Shown here: piece after piece, positions 30,570 through 48,461 of the stretch
How positions within the stretch are numbered: the stretch's first letter is position 1
Layout: the number at the start of each line of letters is the position of its first letter
Position numbers and translations under genes: made by a program
NCBI GenBank assembly: GCA_902616645.1
Contig: CACMTO010000005.1
Location: 1 to 64,000, forward strand
Origin: an uncultured Pelagibacteraceae bacterium
GTDB taxonomy: Bacteria > Pseudomonadota > Alphaproteobacteria > Pelagibacterales > Pelagibacteraceae
Direction: 5' to 3'
Length of the DNA stretch: 64,000 nucleotides
Notes under the pieces: model-generated
What the model saw: only the letters and a program-made list of their open reading frames with translations
Told to the model about the DNA's origin: nothing
The model's database searches: none

Positions 30570-31490
30570 TTAAGCTATAGATCTTAGATGACTTCTATTT
30601 AAAATAGTATTAGGGATAACTTTTTCTCCAATTTCAATTACTGAAAAATTATTATTATCACTAAATAATTTTCTAAGTAATTGATTGGTTAAGGAATGTC
30701 CCCCTTGAGAACACTTGATATTTCCAATTATTCTATATCCTGAGAGATATAAATCACCTAAACAGTCTAAGATTTTGTGATTTACAAATTCTTTCTCATT
30801 TCTTAATTTTTCTTTATTTAAAATTTCATTATCTTTCACAACTATTGCATTATCTAAAGAACCACCTAATGCTAAGTTAGATGATCTAAGTTTTTCAATA
30901 TCTTCATATAGACAGAAGGTTCTTGAATTAAATATATCTGTTAAATTTGATTTATACATGTCAACAACATTTCTTTGATTACTAATTAACTCATTTGCAT
31001 ATTTGATTTCAAAATCAACTTCTAAACTAATCTTACTAGGTTTTATGGATATAGTTTTATGTTTCTCTTGATGTTTAACTTCTTTTTCAATTTTAATTAT
31101 CTTAATTGGTACATCGCTAGTTTGTATTCCAACTTTCAAAATTTCTTCTACAAAAATTCTTGCAGATCCGTCTAAAATTGGTACTTCTTTATTGTTAATT
31201 TCAATAAAAGCATTATCAATTCCAAGACCAAAAAGTGCACCCATCAAATGTTCAATTGTTGATACTGAAACACCATTATCATTAGTAATTGTGGTGCAAA
31301 ATGATGCACTACTCACATTATATACATTTGGTATTACAATATTATTCTTATTTATATCGACTCTTTTAAAATAAATTCCTGTGTTTGGTTTAGCAGGATT
31401 TAAAGTCATTGAAACTTTTTTACCAGAATGAAGGCCTATACCATCGAACTTAATACTTTTTTTAATAGTGTTTTGACTTAATCTTGACAT
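30570..31490 (-). CDS. lpxC: UDP-3-O-acyl-N-acetylglucosamine deacetylase
   Basis: FDGIGLHSGKKVSMTLNPA; STIEHLMGALFGLGIDNAFIE; HKILDCLGDLYLSG. Confidence 0.97.
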   Translation of the reverse strand: MSRLSQNTIKKSIKFDGIGLHSGKKVSMTLNPAKPNTGIYFKRVDINKNNIVIPNVYNVSSASFCTTITNDNGVSVSTIEHLMGALFGLGIDNAFIEINNKEVPILDGSARIFVEEILKVGIQTSDVPIKIIKIEKEVKHQEKHKTISIKPSKISLEVDFEIKYANELISNQRNVVDMYKSNLTDIFNSRTFCLYEDIEKLRSSNLALGGSLDNAIVVKDNEILNKEKLRNEKEFVNHKILDCLGDLYLSGYRIIGNIKCSQGGHSLTNQLLRKLFSDNNNFSVIEIGEKVIPNTILNRSHLRSIA

Positions 31491-31554: not shown

Positions 31555-32256
31555 TCAGCTTAATAAATTAAAAAATTTTTCAAAAAAACCTTGTTTTTTC
31601 TTACTTTTAAGGGTCAAAACTACCTCATTTGGATTAAGACCATCTTTTAATTTTTGAGCCATTAAGAAAAAATCTTTCTCATTTTCATCTAAAAATTTTT
31701 TTATATAACTTACACAAAAAATTTGATTAAGAGATATTTGATACTTTTTTAAAATTTTTTCTAGTTCAATTATGAAATTATTTCCTAGGCAAATAAATTT
31801 TACATCAATTGAAAATTGATTACCATTTAAATTATGAGGTAAATTTGAAAAGTTTTGATTATCAATTTTATAATTATCAACCAACATGTGAATTATTTTT
31901 TGATTATTAAAAGTTTTTTTCGTGCAATCTTTTGCTTCATTAAGTAGAAAATTTAAATTCTCTCTGATAACCATACTTTCAAAATTGTTTTTTTTTACCG
32001 ATATTCGAAATATCAAAAAAATATCTAAATCTATCAAAATAGAAATTTTCTCAACAAATTTTTTTAACAATTTTTCAATCTTAAAAATATTTTCATTAAT
32101 GAAATAGTCTATCTCTTCTAACGGTAATTTACTAAATTCTTTTTTAAGTATTAGTTCCTTTAAATAAATTCTTTTTTGTGAACTTGTATAAACTGAAATA
32201 ACCAATTTTTTTTTATTTATTAAAAGATATGTATTATGATCTAAATTATTTTCCAT
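31555..32256 (-). CDS. Putative reduced FtsA-like protein: FtsA domain 1A/1C-like region plus C-terminal amphipathic tail
   Basis: Located immediately after ftsQ, the ftsA position; pattern NQKIIHMLVDNYKIDNQNFSNLPHNLNGNQFSIDVKFICLGNN resembles FtsA SHS2/1C 'vlHv.P..Y.iD...gi.dP.gm.G..l.v..h.vt'; tail KKQGFFEKFFNLLS; only 233 aa. Confidence 0.6.
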   Translation of the reverse strand: MENNLDHNTYLLINKKKLVISVYTSSQKRIYLKELILKKEFSKLPLEEIDYFINENIFKIEKLLKKFVEKISILIDLDIFLIFRISVKKNNFESMVIRENLNFLLNEAKDCTKKTFNNQKIIHMLVDNYKIDNQNFSNLPHNLNGNQFSIDVKFICLGNNFIIELEKILKKYQISLNQIFCVSYIKKFLDENEKDFFLMAQKLKDGLNPNEVVLTLKSKKKQGFFEKFFNLLS

Positions 32257-32920
32257 TTATAATAATTTGGTTCGATTGTCGTAAATCTATTTCTTTAATA
32301 TTTTTAAATTCTTCTTTTCTTAATACAGATTTATATAATTCTAATGCTTTTTTTACCCCTTGTTTTGGCAATTTAATTATAATTCCAGAATTTGTTTCCA
32401 CATCCCATCTTCCTGAATTAAAAAAAAATAAATTTTTCAATTCAAAATAATTTAACTTACTTTCATCAATTATTTTCTTAAGCTCAAAAAATTCTTTAAT
32501 TTCAAATTTACCGAAAATAAATGGTATATTTTTTCCACCTATGTCAACTTTTATAACCTTTCCATTTGATCCTAAATAAAAAGTATCATCAATATTTTTA
32601 ACTTGAGCTAAAATTTTTGTTTTTGTTATATTTATTTTCAATGTAGAAGGATAAATTTTGAAAATCGAGTATTTTTCAATTAAATTATTTGCACCTAAAA
32701 TTTCAATTATTTCAATTTTATTAAGAAAAAGGAGATTATCAAATTTTAAAAAATCTAAGTTTTTTCTTAATTCTAAATTCTCATTATCACTTAAACCTGA
32801 AATATAGATTTGTTTTATTTTTGGATAATCAAAATCATTAAAGTTTTTGTTATTTATACTTCCTATTAAGAGAAATAAAAAAATATATAAAAAAATTTTT
32901 TTATTTATTTTTTGAGGCAT
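32246..32920 (-). CDS. ftsQ: Cell division protein FtsQ
   Basis: N-terminal TM, POTRA-like region, position between ddl and the ftsA-like gene. Confidence 0.8.
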   Translation of the reverse strand: MPQKINKKIFLYIFLFLLIGSINNKNFNDFDYPKIKQIYISGLSDNENLELRKNLDFLKFDNLLFLNKIEIIEILGANNLIEKYSIFKIYPSTLKINITKTKILAQVKNIDDTFYLGSNGKVIKVDIGGKNIPFIFGKFEIKEFFELKKIIDESKLNYFELKNLFFFNSGRWDVETNSGIIIKLPKQGVKKALELYKSVLRKEEFKNIKEIDLRQSNQIIINGK

Positions 32921-39590: not shown

Positions 39591-40672
39591 CTCAATTTAA
39601 GTGTAGCCAAACCAATCATAGCCAAAATAATAGAAATAATCCAAAACCTTATAACGACAGTGGATTCTTGCCACCCTTTTTTCTCGAAATGGTGGTGAAT
39701 TGGGGCCATTTTAAATATTCTTTTACCAGTTAATTTAAAGGAAATTACTTGAACCACTACTGATAAGGCTTCTAAAACAAATAAACCTCCAGTAATAGCT
39801 AAAACTATTTCATGTTTTGTAATTATTCCAACAGCACCTAAAGACCCACCTAATGATAGAGATCCAGTATCTCCCATAAAAATTTTTGCAGGCGGTGCAT
39901 TAAACCAAAGAAAACCTAAACAAGCACCAATAATTGATCCACAAAAAATAGATATTTCTCCAGTTCCTTTAATATATAAAATTTGAAGATATTCAGAAAA
40001 AACTATATTACCAGTGACATAACTTATAAATGCAAAACAAGCTGCAACCAAAATAACTGGAACAGTAGCCAAACCATCTAGTCCATCTGTCAAATTTACT
40101 GCGTTAGATGATCCAACGATCACAAAAATTGAAAATGGTATAAAGAACCATCCTAAATTGATCAATAAATTTTTAAAAAAAGGAAAATAAAGATTTTTAA
40201 ATTCAGCATAATCTATGTAGTAAGACAAATAAATTAACCCAATTAAAGCCAAAAAAATCTGCATACCAATTTTTAATTTAAATGAAATCCCAGATGAATT
40301 TGAATTTTTTATTTTTTTATAGTCATCGTAAGCTCCTAGTAATCCGAATGAGGTAACAATATATAAACAAAATAAAATATAGATGTTCGTTAAGTCAGCC
40401 CAAAGAAGAACGGAAACGATTAAACCAATTAAAATAATAACTCCACCCATAGTTGGTGTACCTATCTTTTTGACAATGTGGTCAGTAGGTCCATCTTCTC
40501 TAATTGGGTTAAAAATTTTCCTATTTGAAAATAATTTAATAAATGATCCTCCAATTAAAAGAACAATCGTAAGTGAGGTGAAAAAGGCTAATCCTGTTCT
40601 AAAAGTTATATATTTAAAAACATTTAAAAATGTTAATGTATCTACGTAATTAAGTAAAAATTCATACAGCAT
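39587..40672 (-). CDS. mraY: Phospho-N-acetylmuramoyl-pentapeptide transferase
   Basis: GTPTMGGVIIL; NLTDGLDGLA; MAPIHHHFEKKGW. Confidence 0.97.
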   Translation of the reverse strand: MLYEFLLNYVDTLTFLNVFKYITFRTGLAFFTSLTIVLLIGGSFIKLFSNRKIFNPIREDGPTDHIVKKIGTPTMGGVIILIGLIVSVLLWADLTNIYILFCLYIVTSFGLLGAYDDYKKIKNSNSSGISFKLKIGMQIFLALIGLIYLSYYIDYAEFKNLYFPFFKNLLINLGWFFIPFSIFVIVGSSNAVNLTDGLDGLATVPVILVAACFAFISYVTGNIVFSEYLQILYIKGTGEISIFCGSIIGACLGFLWFNAPPAKIFMGDTGSLSLGGSLGAVGIITKHEIVLAITGGLFVLEALSVVVQVISFKLTGKRIFKMAPIHHHFEKKGWQESTVVIRFWIISIILAMIGLATLKLR

Positions 40673-43508
40673 GTGAACTTCTTTGTTTTAAATTTGACGT
40701 TAAGTAATTAAGTCCTGTTGAATTTGATCCCTTAATCATTAAATAATCATTATTATTTAGATTATCATTAATTAATTTCTTGATATCTAATTTTTTTAAT
40801 ATCTTGGCTTTTTTATTTGATTTTAAGCCTTTAAAAGTCTCTTTAATATATTTTCCTATAACATACACTTTATTGATATTAGTTTTATTTACAATCTTGC
40901 TCATAAGTTTATGTTGTTTATAAGAATGTTTACCTAACTCGAGCATATCTCCTAAAACTAAATATTTTTTAGAATTTCTCGACTCGATATTATCATAGTT
41001 CTCTATTGCAGTTTGAAGTGATAAAGGATTTGAATTATAAGTTTCATCTACTAAGAAGATATTTTTATTTTTAATTTTAATTTTCGATATGTCTCCTCTC
41101 CCACTTGGAATTTTAATATTAAGAAAAATGTTTTTTTTTAATTTTTTTAAATTTATATAAGAATAAATAGATGCTAAGGTCGCAGTTATATTATATAAAT
41201 TACTTTTATTTTTATTTCTTGAATAAAAAGACACAGAGATATTATTAACATTAAAAAATAACTCATATATATTTTTTTTTTTTTTAATTTTGGTAAGTTT
41301 TACCATTGAGGACTTGTTTTTGACTCCAAAAGATATGATTTTTAATTTTTTTTTTATTGCGATTTTTTTATGATAATCATAAAAATTATCATCTTTATTT
41401 AAAACAATTATCCCACCGTATTTAATATTTTCCATTATTTCAGCTTTCGCATCTGCAATTTGCTTTATATTCTTAAAGTTTTTTGAATGAGCATAACTAA
41501 CATTTGTTATTACGCCTAGATCTGGCCTAATCATTTTAGTTAAGTTACTAATTTCACCTTTTTTATCCATGCCAACCTCAAAAATACCAAAATCATCATT
41601 TTGCTTTAGATTGAATAAACTAACTGGCACACCATATTTATTATTAAAAGATTTTGGAGAGAAAGAAGCATTTGATATTTTTCCTAAAGTTTGTCCAACC
41701 ATCTCTTTTAATGATGTTTTTCCACAGCTGCCTGTGATTGAGATTATTTTTGCATTAATATTTTCCCTGAAAATTGAGGCACATTTACTTAAAAATTCTA
41801 GAGAATTATCAACTTTTATTTGTTTTGATAATGAGGATTTTTTATCGAACCGATTTACAATTGTTAAGCTAGAATTTTTTTTAAGAGCTTCTTTAATAAA
41901 TTTATTACCATCGTTTTTTTTTCCTTTAATTGCAAAAAAAACATCATTCTTTTTTAATGTTTTTGAATTGATTGAAATATTATTAATAACTAATTTAGTT
42001 GATATTTTAGACTTTGATTGTTCTTTAATAATATTTAACTTCAGGTCACTTGATAAATTCTTATTTTTTAACTTTATAGATTTTAAAATTACATCTTTAT
42101 CAGAAAAGAATAATTTTCTTTTATCATATTCTTGAATTTTCTCATGACCTTTTCCAGCTACTAAAAGAATATCTCCTGTATTTAAATCTTTGATTGCTTC
42201 GTTGATAGCTTTTTTTCTATTTGCAAATTCAAAAGTTTTGGCTTTTTTGAAACCTCTTTTAATATCACTTCTTATTTTTTGAGGGTTTTCACTTCTTGGA
42301 TTATCATCGGTCAAATAAATTTTATCAGAGTAGATTTCAGCTATTCTTCCCATAATAGATCTTTTTTTAAAATCTCTATCTCCACCACAACCAAAAACTA
42401 AACTAATTTTTTTTTGGGGAAATTGTTGTTTCAGACTCATTAAAGACAACTGTAAAGCTTTTGGTGTATGAGCATAATCTAAAACTACCATACTTTTATT
42501 TTTAATTTTTCCTATCTTTTCTAAACGTCCTTCCGTCGATTTTATTTTGTTAAGGACACCAATTATTTTATGAAATTTTATTCCACTTTTGTAAGCGGCT
42601 ATCATTGCCATTAATAAATTATTTATTTGTATCTTGCCAATTAAATTTACTTCAACAAAGTATATTTTATTATTAAACTTAATTTCAAGATGTTGTTTTT
42701 CATTTACAAATTTATGAGAAATTAAATTAATATTTCTGTCATCATTTATAAGATTAAGATAAATCTTTTTTTTAGTTGCAATATTTTCTATTATTTTTTT
42801 TTGGGGTATTTTTAAATCTGTAATTATTTCTCCCCTTTTTTTTACTAAATTTTTAAATAAATATAACTTCGACTCTAAGTAATTACTCATATTTTTATGA
42901 TAATCCAAATGGTCATGGGATAAGTTAGTAAAAATTCCGATATCAAAAGAAAGTCCGTCAAGTCTGTTCTGTTTTAAACCATGACTAGATGCCTCTAATA
43001 TAATATTATCGATTTTTCTTTTTTTTAAATTTTTTAATATAGAACTTAATTGAATCGGATCTAAAGTTGTATTATTCAAATTTTTTTTATTATTCTTAGT
43101 TCTAATTCCAATTGTACCGATAGATGCAACTTTCTTAAAATTTAAATCTAGTATTTGATAATAAAAATCTGCTACAGACGATTTTCCATTAGTTCCTGTG
43201 ACTGCAATTAATTTTTTTGGTTTTTTTTCTAAAATTTTGTAAGAAATCTCAGCTAACAATTTTCTTACGTTTTTAAAATTCAAAAAAACAACGTCTTTAT
43301 ATTTACTAAATGTTTTTTTTTCTGAAACTATTATTGTTGCACCATTCTTAATAGCAACATCAATATATTTATTTCCATCAAACTTATTCCCTTTGATAGC
43401 AAAAAAAATATTTCTTTTTGAAATCTTAGAACTATCAAAAGAGATACCTGAGAATGAAAGTTCTTTATATTTTTTATCTAAATTAGGAATATAATCTTTG
43501 AGTAACAT
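40662..43508 (-). CDS. murEF: MurE-MurF fusion protein (UDP-MurNAc-tripeptide synthetase plus UDP-MurNAc-pentapeptide synthetase)
   Basis: One 948-aa ORF with two Mur ligase modules: MurE (AVTGTNGKSSVADF, HDHLDYHKNMSNYLESK, DDNPRSENP) then MurF (SITGSCGKTSLKEM, DETYNSNPLSLQTAIENY, LGDMLELG). Confidence 0.93.
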   Translation of the reverse strand: MLLKDYIPNLDKKYKELSFSGISFDSSKISKRNIFFAIKGNKFDGNKYIDVAIKNGATIIVSEKKTFSKYKDVVFLNFKNVRKLLAEISYKILEKKPKKLIAVTGTNGKSSVADFYYQILDLNFKKVASIGTIGIRTKNNKKNLNNTTLDPIQLSSILKNLKKRKIDNIILEASSHGLKQNRLDGLSFDIGIFTNLSHDHLDYHKNMSNYLESKLYLFKNLVKKRGEIITDLKIPQKKIIENIATKKKIYLNLINDDRNINLISHKFVNEKQHLEIKFNNKIYFVEVNLIGKIQINNLLMAMIAAYKSGIKFHKIIGVLNKIKSTEGRLEKIGKIKNKSMVVLDYAHTPKALQLSLMSLKQQFPQKKISLVFGCGGDRDFKKRSIMGRIAEIYSDKIYLTDDNPRSENPQKIRSDIKRGFKKAKTFEFANRKKAINEAIKDLNTGDILLVAGKGHEKIQEYDKRKLFFSDKDVILKSIKLKNKNLSSDLKLNIIKEQSKSKISTKLVINNISINSKTLKKNDVFFAIKGKKNDGNKFIKEALKKNSSLTIVNRFDKKSSLSKQIKVDNSLEFLSKCASIFRENINAKIISITGSCGKTSLKEMVGQTLGKISNASFSPKSFNNKYGVPVSLFNLKQNDDFGIFEVGMDKKGEISNLTKMIRPDLGVITNVSYAHSKNFKNIKQIADAKAEIMENIKYGGIIVLNKDDNFYDYHKKIAIKKKLKIISFGVKNKSSMVKLTKIKKKKNIYELFFNVNNISVSFYSRNKNKSNLYNITATLASIYSYINLKKLKKNIFLNIKIPSGRGDISKIKIKNKNIFLVDETYNSNPLSLQTAIENYDNIESRNSKKYLVLGDMLELGKHSYKQHKLMSKIVNKTNINKVYVIGKYIKETFKGLKSNKKAKILKKLDIKKLINDNLNNNDYLMIKGSNSTGLNYLTSNLKQRSSHAV

Positions 43509-46523: not shown

Positions 46524-47990
46524 TTAATTTTTTTGTCTTCTTAAAAATGCAGGTATCTCTAGATCATCCTCTTCATTATTTTCAACATTTGATGATTCTA
46601 ATAAACTCTCTGAGCTAGCCTCGTGATTGTCTGCACTAAATAAGTCTGGCTCGTCAGTATCTACACCAAATTCTTTCAGATCATTGGATGGAGCTTCATC
46701 TTTATCTAAAGATTTAATAGCTTCTTGAGAAAATGATTGCTCATTCTCATTTGATGTGTCATGAACTATATTCTCTGCTTCTTGATTTCTCAAAAGCTCT
46801 TCATGATATTGATTATTTAAATCATCTACTGTCTCGTTACCGATATTTTCTGAAATAACCTCATTTTCAAGTTTTAATGCATTAGCACCATGTGAAATTG
46901 GGTTTGTACTTGCATTAGAAAAACTAAAAGAAGCAGTTCCGTTGCTTGTAGTAAAATCAGAATATCCAGGATTACGGTTTTGAATTCTATGAACCATATT
47001 AATTACTGATTTAGTCTCAGGTTGTTGACCATCTAAAGACGTTGCCACTATTGAAACTCTAATTTTACCATCGAGTGAAGTATCTGTAATTGCTCCAATT
47101 ATAACTTCAGCGTCAGCCTCTACTTCAGATCTTATTTTATGTACTACTTCATCAACTTCGAATAATTTAAGATCTTTTCCCCCCGTGATATTTACTAATA
47201 ATCCCTTCGCTCCTTTTAATGAATAATCATCAATTAGAGGATTGCTAATAGCCATATCTGTTGCTTTCATAGCTCTACCATCCCCTTCTGCTTCTCCAGT
47301 TCCCATCATCGCCTTACCCATTGATGCCATAACAGTCTCAACATCAGCAAAATCTAAATTAATAATTCCTGGTCTTACCATTAAATCAGTTACACTTTGA
47401 ACTCCGTGCATTAAAACATTATTTGAAAGCTGAAAAGACTCTTCAAAAGTTGTTTGTTCATTTGCAATCTTAAATAGATTTTGATTAGGGATTACAATTA
47501 TTGTATCAACATGTTTTCTCAACTCTTCTAATCCAATTTGTGCTCTTTTCATTCTTCCTGGACCTTCATACAGAAAAGGAAGAGTTACAACTCCTACAGT
47601 CAAAATATTTAATTCTTTTGCTGCTCTAGCAATTACATGTGCTGCACCAGTTCCTGTTCCACCTCCCATTCCAGCAGCTATAAAAACCATGTTTGCACCT
47701 TGTAAAATATTAATAATATCATTTAGAGACTCATCAGCAGCAGCTTGGCCTATATCAAGTTTTGCTCCAGCCCCTAATCCTTTTGTTAAATTTAATCCAA
47801 TTTGAACTTTTGATTTTGCCTTACTATGTTTCAAATCTTGGGCGTCAGTATTAACAGCTATGAATTCTACCCCCTCCATTCCATTATCAATCATTTCATT
47901 AATAGCATTTCCTCCCGCACCACCAACTCCCATTACTAGAAGTCGTGGCTTCAATTCCTTGATCTCTGGTGCTTTAAAATTAATAGTCAT
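46524..47990 (-). CDS. ftsZ: Cell division GTPase FtsZ
   Basis: [28 protein letters not shown]; conserved C-terminal peptide [11 protein letters not shown]. Confidence 0.98.
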
Positions 47991-48005
47991 TTTTTATCCC
48001 CCTCA

Positions 48006-48461
48006 TTATTTATTTAATTGACTTTCCCATTTAAGACTTGCACGATTCAAATTGGCTTTTTTTCTTGCTATGGCCTTAAATTTTTCAAAGATAGTTGGTT
48101 CCCAGATTTGGAATGTTTTTCCTTGTCCAACAAATAAAATTTTGTTTCTTACTTTTGAATGTTTTAACAATTTAGGTGTAAGTGAAATTCTGCCTTCGCT
48201 ATCAAATTGTAAGTTTATACTCTCAGATAATATTGATGTTGCGAAATAATCTCTTTTTTCCTCAAAAGGGCTTAAAGAATCTATGGTGTTTGAAATTTTT
48301 TCTATCCTATCTTGTGGCCAGGCTTCAAGAGATGGATTATTGAAAGAAGGGTAACATATAAACCCATTATATCCTAAATTTGAAAGATATGATCTAAAAC
48401 TAGCTGGCACAGACACCCTCCCTTTTTTGTCTAGTTTGTTTTCGTAGGTTGATAAAAACAT
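48006..48461 (-). CDS. mraZ: Transcriptional regulator MraZ
   Basis: Two AbrB-like MraZ repeats (NKLDKKGRVSVPASFRSYL; FDSEGRISLTPKLLKHS). Confidence 0.95.
   Translation of the reverse strand: MFLSTYENKLDKKGRVSVPASFRSYLSNLGYNGFICYPSFNNPSLEAWPQDRIEKISNTIDSLSPFEEKRDYFATSILSESINLQFDSEGRISLTPKLLKHSKVRNKILFVGQGKTFQIWEPTIFEKFKAIARKKANLNRASLKWESQLNK

Follow-up and report, generated by a model that had tools for sequence, protein, structure and literature searches.

The window analysed here is a stretch of 64,000 nucleotides from a SAR11 bacterium (Pelagibacteraceae), whose own assembly comprises 1.04 Mb in 26 contigs. At the position in the division cluster that follows ftsQ, it carries an intact reading frame between ftsQ and lpxC, and the initial annotation was correct in placing a 233-aa product at the canonical ftsA site (Table 1). 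Comparison loci, referred to as named loci and cited by L numbers (genomes by G numbers), were sampled by a scan with the neighbouring LpxC; the matches all belonged to Pelagibacteraceae, including Candidatus Pelagibacter ubique HTCC9565. The order ftsQ-ftsA-lpxC was met in the loci covering this region.

Two further observations concern the surroundings of the gene. The ftsZ gene lies away from its usual site beside ftsA, at the head of the division cluster between mraZ and rsmH (window 46524-48461), and a distance of about 15-16 kb between ftsZ and ftsA was also found in other genomes of the order with both genes on one contig. In addition, ATP motifs of the Mur-ligase type occur twice in a 948-aa reading frame (window 40662-43508), as TGTNGKS and as TGSCGKT, and this frame resembles a MurE-MurF fusion.

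Table 1. Position of the reduced ftsA, its parts and the related genes in the window; residue numbers are those of the reduced protein.
Feature	Position	Strand	Basis
Reduced ftsA, whole CDS, 233 aa, ATG start	31555..32256	-	ORF; TIGR01174; AlphaFold/Foldseek; alignment of 40 reduced proteins
Subdomain IA, first part, residues 6-80; helix with invariant Glu61	32017..32241	-	Alignment with full-length FtsA; Glu 61/61; AlphaFold
Decayed phosphate-1 motif, LINKKKL vs DFGSSKI in full-length relatives	32203..32223	-	Column counts
Subdomain IC / SHS2 domain, residues 81-160	31777..32016	-	Pfam SHS2_FTSA 95-155; TIGR01174 95-195
Subdomain IA, second part, residues 161-190	31687..31776	-	Alignment; AlphaFold
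Junction, about 140 IIA/IIB residues absent vs full-length relatives	31672..31692	-	Alignment of 39 representatives
Last IIA helix and N-x-N-E-V motif kept, residues 196-213	31618..31671	-	Aligns with full-length C-terminus
Basic linker, residues 214-222	31591..31617	-	Low pLDDT; Lys-rich
Predicted C-terminal amphipathic membrane-targeting helix GFFEKFFNLLS, residues 223-233	31558..31590	-	Conservation; hydrophobic moment
ftsQ, 11 bp overlap with reduced ftsA	32246..32920	-	Pfam FtsQ_DivIB_C and POTRA_1
lpxC, synteny anchor, 64 bp downstream of reduced ftsA	30570..31490	-	ORF; named loci
ftsZ, single copy, moved to between mraZ and rsmH	46524..47990	-	
FtsZ C-terminal peptide, unchanged	46527..46568	-	Identical in 16/16 reduced-type genomes
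mreB, sole other FtsA-family (PF14450) match in the window's genome	6079..7113	-	

The identity of the product was assessed using sequence profiles and structure prediction. The profile TIGR01174 matched with an E-value of 6.8e-9 and 35.3 bits over residues 95-195 only, which correspond to IC and the second part of IA. This score is lower than the curated whole-protein cut-off of 175.85 bits; however, the cut-off was reached by none of the 399 genomes of the genus, carriers of full-length ftsA included, and the full-length Pelagibacter FtsA is therefore already diverged. Pfam SHS2_FTSA, equivalent to IC, matched residues 95-155 (E 5.9e-5), slightly under its gathering score. A search of the PDB with a profile of 40 reduced homologues returned FtsA matches only (E. 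coli 7q6d, E 6e-5). The AlphaFold model, based on an alignment of the 40 reduced proteins, reached a mean pLDDT of 86.1 and a pTM of 0.80, and Foldseek placed FtsA structures from the PDB at ranks 1-19, the best being the T. maritima FtsA:FtsZ-peptide complex 4a2a (E 2.5e-12), with PilM and GspL/EpsL below them. The homology to FtsA far exceeds chance; profiles, synteny, model and structure search all agree on the IA-IC part of FtsA, as the early reading of domains 1A and 1C had it, and the predicted fold is that of FtsA rather than an unrelated one.

PilM and the cytoplasmic domains of GspL/EpsL, which rank next after FtsA, likewise combine an actin-like core with an IC-type domain and dock membrane proteins; the binding of PilN by PilM is reported to be reminiscent of that of FtsN by FtsA (PMC7613929). 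A half-actin of this type could have replaced FtsA at the locus, and we regard such a replacement as extremely improbable, given that FtsA fills the first 19 ranks, that the sequence profiles match FtsA only and that the position and the tail are the same as in full-length FtsA of the same genus. The product would also be anomalous as a PilM, since domain 2 is absent, whereas PilM keeps all four subdomains, and its neighbours form the division cluster and not a pilN/pilus cluster; PilM and GspL/EpsL are encoded outside the division operon. The gene is the SAR11 orthologue of ftsA by descent. Judged on its sequence, the product would nevertheless fall outside the FtsA family by the defining features of that family, having no domain 2, no ATP motifs and a score under the cut-off.

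The extent of the reduction was determined by alignment with full-length proteins. Among 39 representatives, the junction was identical in all reduced proteins, with the end of IA leading to the last IIA helix (MAQKLKDGLNPNEV in the window), which has been retained and is followed by the N-x-N-E-V motif, a basic linker and the tail. PF14450, the FtsA domain 2, was found in 21/21 full-length and 0/40 reduced proteins, and the product encoded in the window does not match it. The proposal that domains 2A and 2B are missing is thus right for IIB and most of IIA, and has to be amended in that the deletion is internal and spares the last IIA helix. Among the full-length proteins, phosphate-1 contains Asp in 20/21 and Gly in 21/21, whereas Gly occurs in 3/40 reduced proteins and Asp is not among their commonest residues. 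The phosphate-2 Asp and Gly and the adenosine Gly pair are invariant in the 21 full-length proteins and deleted in the 40 reduced ones. The loss of the "ATP-binding half" described previously is accordingly seen in the phosphate-2 and adenosine motifs, and the change goes beyond it: phosphate-1 in the retained IA has decayed as well, and ATP binding would therefore be lost on both sides. The Arg aligned with E. coli R300, a residue that we take to participate in FtsZ binding, shows the same pattern (invariant in 21, deleted in 40). The Glu of the IA helix is conserved in all 61 proteins, reduced and full-length.

The C-terminal tail is the most conserved segment, with a mean pairwise identity of 64% in the reduced and 67% in the full-length proteins, and Phe225 and Phe229 are present in 40/40 reduced proteins. 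Its hydrophobic moment is 0.52 against a control mean of 0.29, a value reached by 8% of random 11-mers and hence high, not extreme; AlphaFold predicts a helix at residues 224-232 with low pLDDT. The lysine-rich linker and FtsA-like amphipathic segment noticed at the outset are present, the tail being nearly the same as in full-length Pelagibacter FtsA. The mean identity of IC is lower among the reduced (30%) than among the full-length proteins (41%), so the binding role of IC may have changed too, and sequence change is faster in the reduced form in most segments. As a separate observation, the model of the full-length FtsA of HTCC9565 (L064 3825-4928) shows the IIB region without beta strands, as though the subdomain that binds FtsZ had begun to shrink there.

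In the genus, ftsA length is bimodal, at about 220-245 aa or 368-399 aa with none between; the named loci with an uncut gene, where ftsA is always directly upstream of lpxC, comprise 39 of 223-244 aa and 21 of 368-399 aa. By hand count, an intact reduced ftsA occurs in about 80 genomes of the genus within the sample of the order and a full-length ftsA in at least 34; uncut ftsA from the family's other genera and from the sister family encodes about 378-407 aa. Reduced ftsA is present in complete single-contig genomes (G106, G322 and G409, where it is intact, and G424). For related pairs of reduced ftsA, dN/dS was 0.09-0.30; the corresponding ranges were 0.16-0.24 (full-length ftsA) and 0.11-0.43 (ftsQ), with synonymous sites near saturation in the wider pairs. 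Reduced ftsA is thus under purifying selection similar to that on full-length ftsA and ftsQ. An assembly artefact or pseudogene was rejected on the complete genomes, the abundance of intact copies and the dN/dS values, and the reduced ftsA is a conserved form common to many SAR11 species, not an oddity of one genome.

Short or missing matches had raised the suspicion that certain species have shortened ftsA still more or lost it altogether. This was rejected: the cases with an lpxC locus lay at contig ends, and the remaining ones gave no lpxC match, so that the region is probably missing from their assemblies. Two otherwise good genomes carry a reduced ftsA that is frameshifted near an A-rich stretch (L171 4763-5462 in G012; L193 732-1434 in G483), for which sequencing error, slippage and early decay are candidate causes. 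These frameshifts and the faster change of the reduced form in most segments are the observations that would fit a decaying, functionless remnant. This reading is very unlikely in view of some 80 intact copies in one sample of the genus, the low dN/dS, the fixed size and junction, the conserved tail and the position of the apparent truncations at contig ends.

Full-length ftsA is ancestral and the reduction is derived, since the outgroups and basal lineages are full-length. In a tree of neighbouring genes (LpxC+Ddl+MurB), the reduced forms appear in about four places and a single clade is rejected (p-AU 2e-73), whereas the FtsA tree gathers all reduced forms in one clade (SH-aLRT 95), and once the junction and phosphate-1 columns are removed, the data do not reject a single origin (p 0.25). 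Recombination in SAR11 could reconcile the two trees. The reduction may have arisen by one deletion that was spread or reverted by recombination, or by three or more deletions.

A second FtsA or another membrane tether was then sought by profile searches. No second FtsA was found in the window's own genome or in the complete genomes G106, G322 and G409, and in the window's genome PF14450 matched MreB only. With positive controls, SepF was found in 0/61 and ZipA in 0/18 genomes. The genome-wide search for an intact FtsA, ZipA or SepF that had been suggested for this locus was therefore negative. The function could be split, with the missing half or an intact FtsA encoded elsewhere, and the window's own assembly, 88.8% complete, would alone leave room for such a gene. 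The complete genomes with the reduced gene make this highly improbable: their FtsA-profile matches are limited to MreB, a roughly 648-aa DnaK-sized protein and the reduced ftsA itself.

Other division proteins were included in the searches. ZapA was matched in 16/18 genomes, though not in the window's own incomplete assembly; the match is missing in G000 and G009, for which an assembly gap may be the cause. Matches to FtsX, considered as an alternative anchor, were weak, far below the cut-off and to proteins of about 400 aa. None of the SPOR proteins seen (L212-L219) could be recognised as an FtsN with a tail in the cytoplasm; they have a lipobox-like N-terminus like RlpA, and FtsN was rejected as a ligand of the IA-IC cleft because they look like RlpA-type lipoproteins that lack such a tail.

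FtsZ, the partner of FtsA, is single copy in 28/28 genomes, and no column of its alignment separates genomes of the reduced type from those of the full-length type. The encoded protein ends in the C-terminal peptide that had been claimed for it, and this peptide is constant in 16/16 reduced-type genomes. In other bacteria, further partners converge on the FtsZ tail as a hub, and SepF and ZipA serve as alternative membrane tethers of it; the folds of both are unrelated to that of reduced FtsA. Conservation of the tail need not imply FtsA binding, since the tail serves other partners elsewhere.

The known contacts of FtsA are distributed over its subdomains. FtsN, a bitopic divisome protein, is bound through its cytoplasmic tail in the cleft between IA and IC; antiparallel filaments pair laterally into double filaments by IC-IC contacts, and IIA-IIB provides the longitudinal filament contacts (PMC7613929). 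IIB holds the FtsZ-binding region (PMC8998562). We propose that an in-frame internal deletion removed IIB together with IIA except for its last helix. The product would be a peripheral membrane protein anchored by the amphipathic helix, and the remaining IA-IC core would be a docking module that could still pair through IC and could act as a membrane-side receptor linking the ring to the FtsQ/W/I machinery. With the ATP motifs, the IIA-IIB filament contacts and the IIB site lost, the half-protein would be unable to bind ATP, form actin-like protofilaments or bind FtsZ at the known site, and FtsZ would be tethered through another contact, either a different site on the half-FtsA or another membrane protein. 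A membrane-bound half-FtsA that has kept its divisome receptor role and lost these three properties, with tethering elsewhere, is the best explanation and in our judgement a fairly probable one. Against it weigh the failure to recognise an FtsN-type ligand for the cleft, the weaker conservation of IC in the reduced proteins, the unchanged FtsZ tail and the high but not extreme hydrophobic moment of the membrane tail. We infer membrane binding, the receptor role and the loss of FtsZ binding, and the earlier suggestion of a minimal membrane adaptor suits the retained parts, namely, IA-IC and the predicted amphipathic tail. The altered Z-ring tethering proposed with it would follow from the missing IIB site and the unchanged FtsZ tail.

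The unchanged FtsZ tail could also mean that half-FtsA still binds FtsZ and remains its tether, with the peptide at a relocated site such as the IA face bared by the loss of IIA or the IA-IC cleft. SepF and ZipA were not found, the tail of half-FtsA is its most conserved part and the gene is retained under selection, all of which would be expected of a tether; however, the known site in IIB with its invariant R300-aligned Arg is wholly gone, no FtsZ column co-varies with the reduction and the peptide may be maintained by other partners. We therefore rate a relocated site as rather unlikely, though well worth keeping in mind. By the preferred explanation of a half-FtsA that keeps the receptor role, SAR11 bacteria with reduced FtsA probably attach the Z-ring to the membrane otherwise than in the textbook way. 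A stronger version, which we advance tentatively and at slightly less than even chances, is that in many Pelagibacter species membrane attachment of the Z-ring does without any actin-fold FtsA, the half-FtsA being only a receptor for the septal-wall machinery and the FtsZ tail being anchored by another protein.

The closest comparison is with full-length Pelagibacter FtsA (e.g. Ca. P. ubique HTCC9565, 368 aa, L064), which shares the ftsQ-ftsA-lpxC locus, the IA-IC fold, the invariant IA-helix Glu, the last IIA helix and a nearly identical tail with the reduced form, but is about 135-160 residues longer and has IIA/IIB, the phosphate-1, phosphate-2 and adenosine motifs and the R300-aligned Arg. 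The FtsA proteins of E. coli (7q6d), Vibrio maritimus (7q6f/7q6i) and T. maritima (4a2a) show the same IA-IC arrangement, which binds FtsN in V. maritimus, and an amphipathic C-terminal helix; unlike the reduced form, they have a complete actin fold, ATP binding, IIA-IIB protofilaments and the FtsZ tail bound in IIB. No report of a half-size FtsA in SAR11 was found in the literature, subscription papers and preprints being outside the scope of this search.

In the current view, FtsA is a conserved actin that couples the Z-ring to wall synthesis through its ATP-dependent filaments and its contact with FtsZ in IIB. SAR11 bacteria are among the most abundant marine bacteria, and the retention of only IA-IC and a membrane tail in this large, free-living group would show that filaments, nucleotide binding and the known FtsZ contact are all dispensable where FtsZ and wall-synthesis genes persist. 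The finding makes the indispensable job of FtsA testable with natural full-length and half forms within a single genus, and it also directs attention to a missing FtsZ tether in SAR11. If the Z-ring is indeed held without an actin-fold FtsA, the two jobs of FtsA would have been separated naturally in a very abundant bacterial group.
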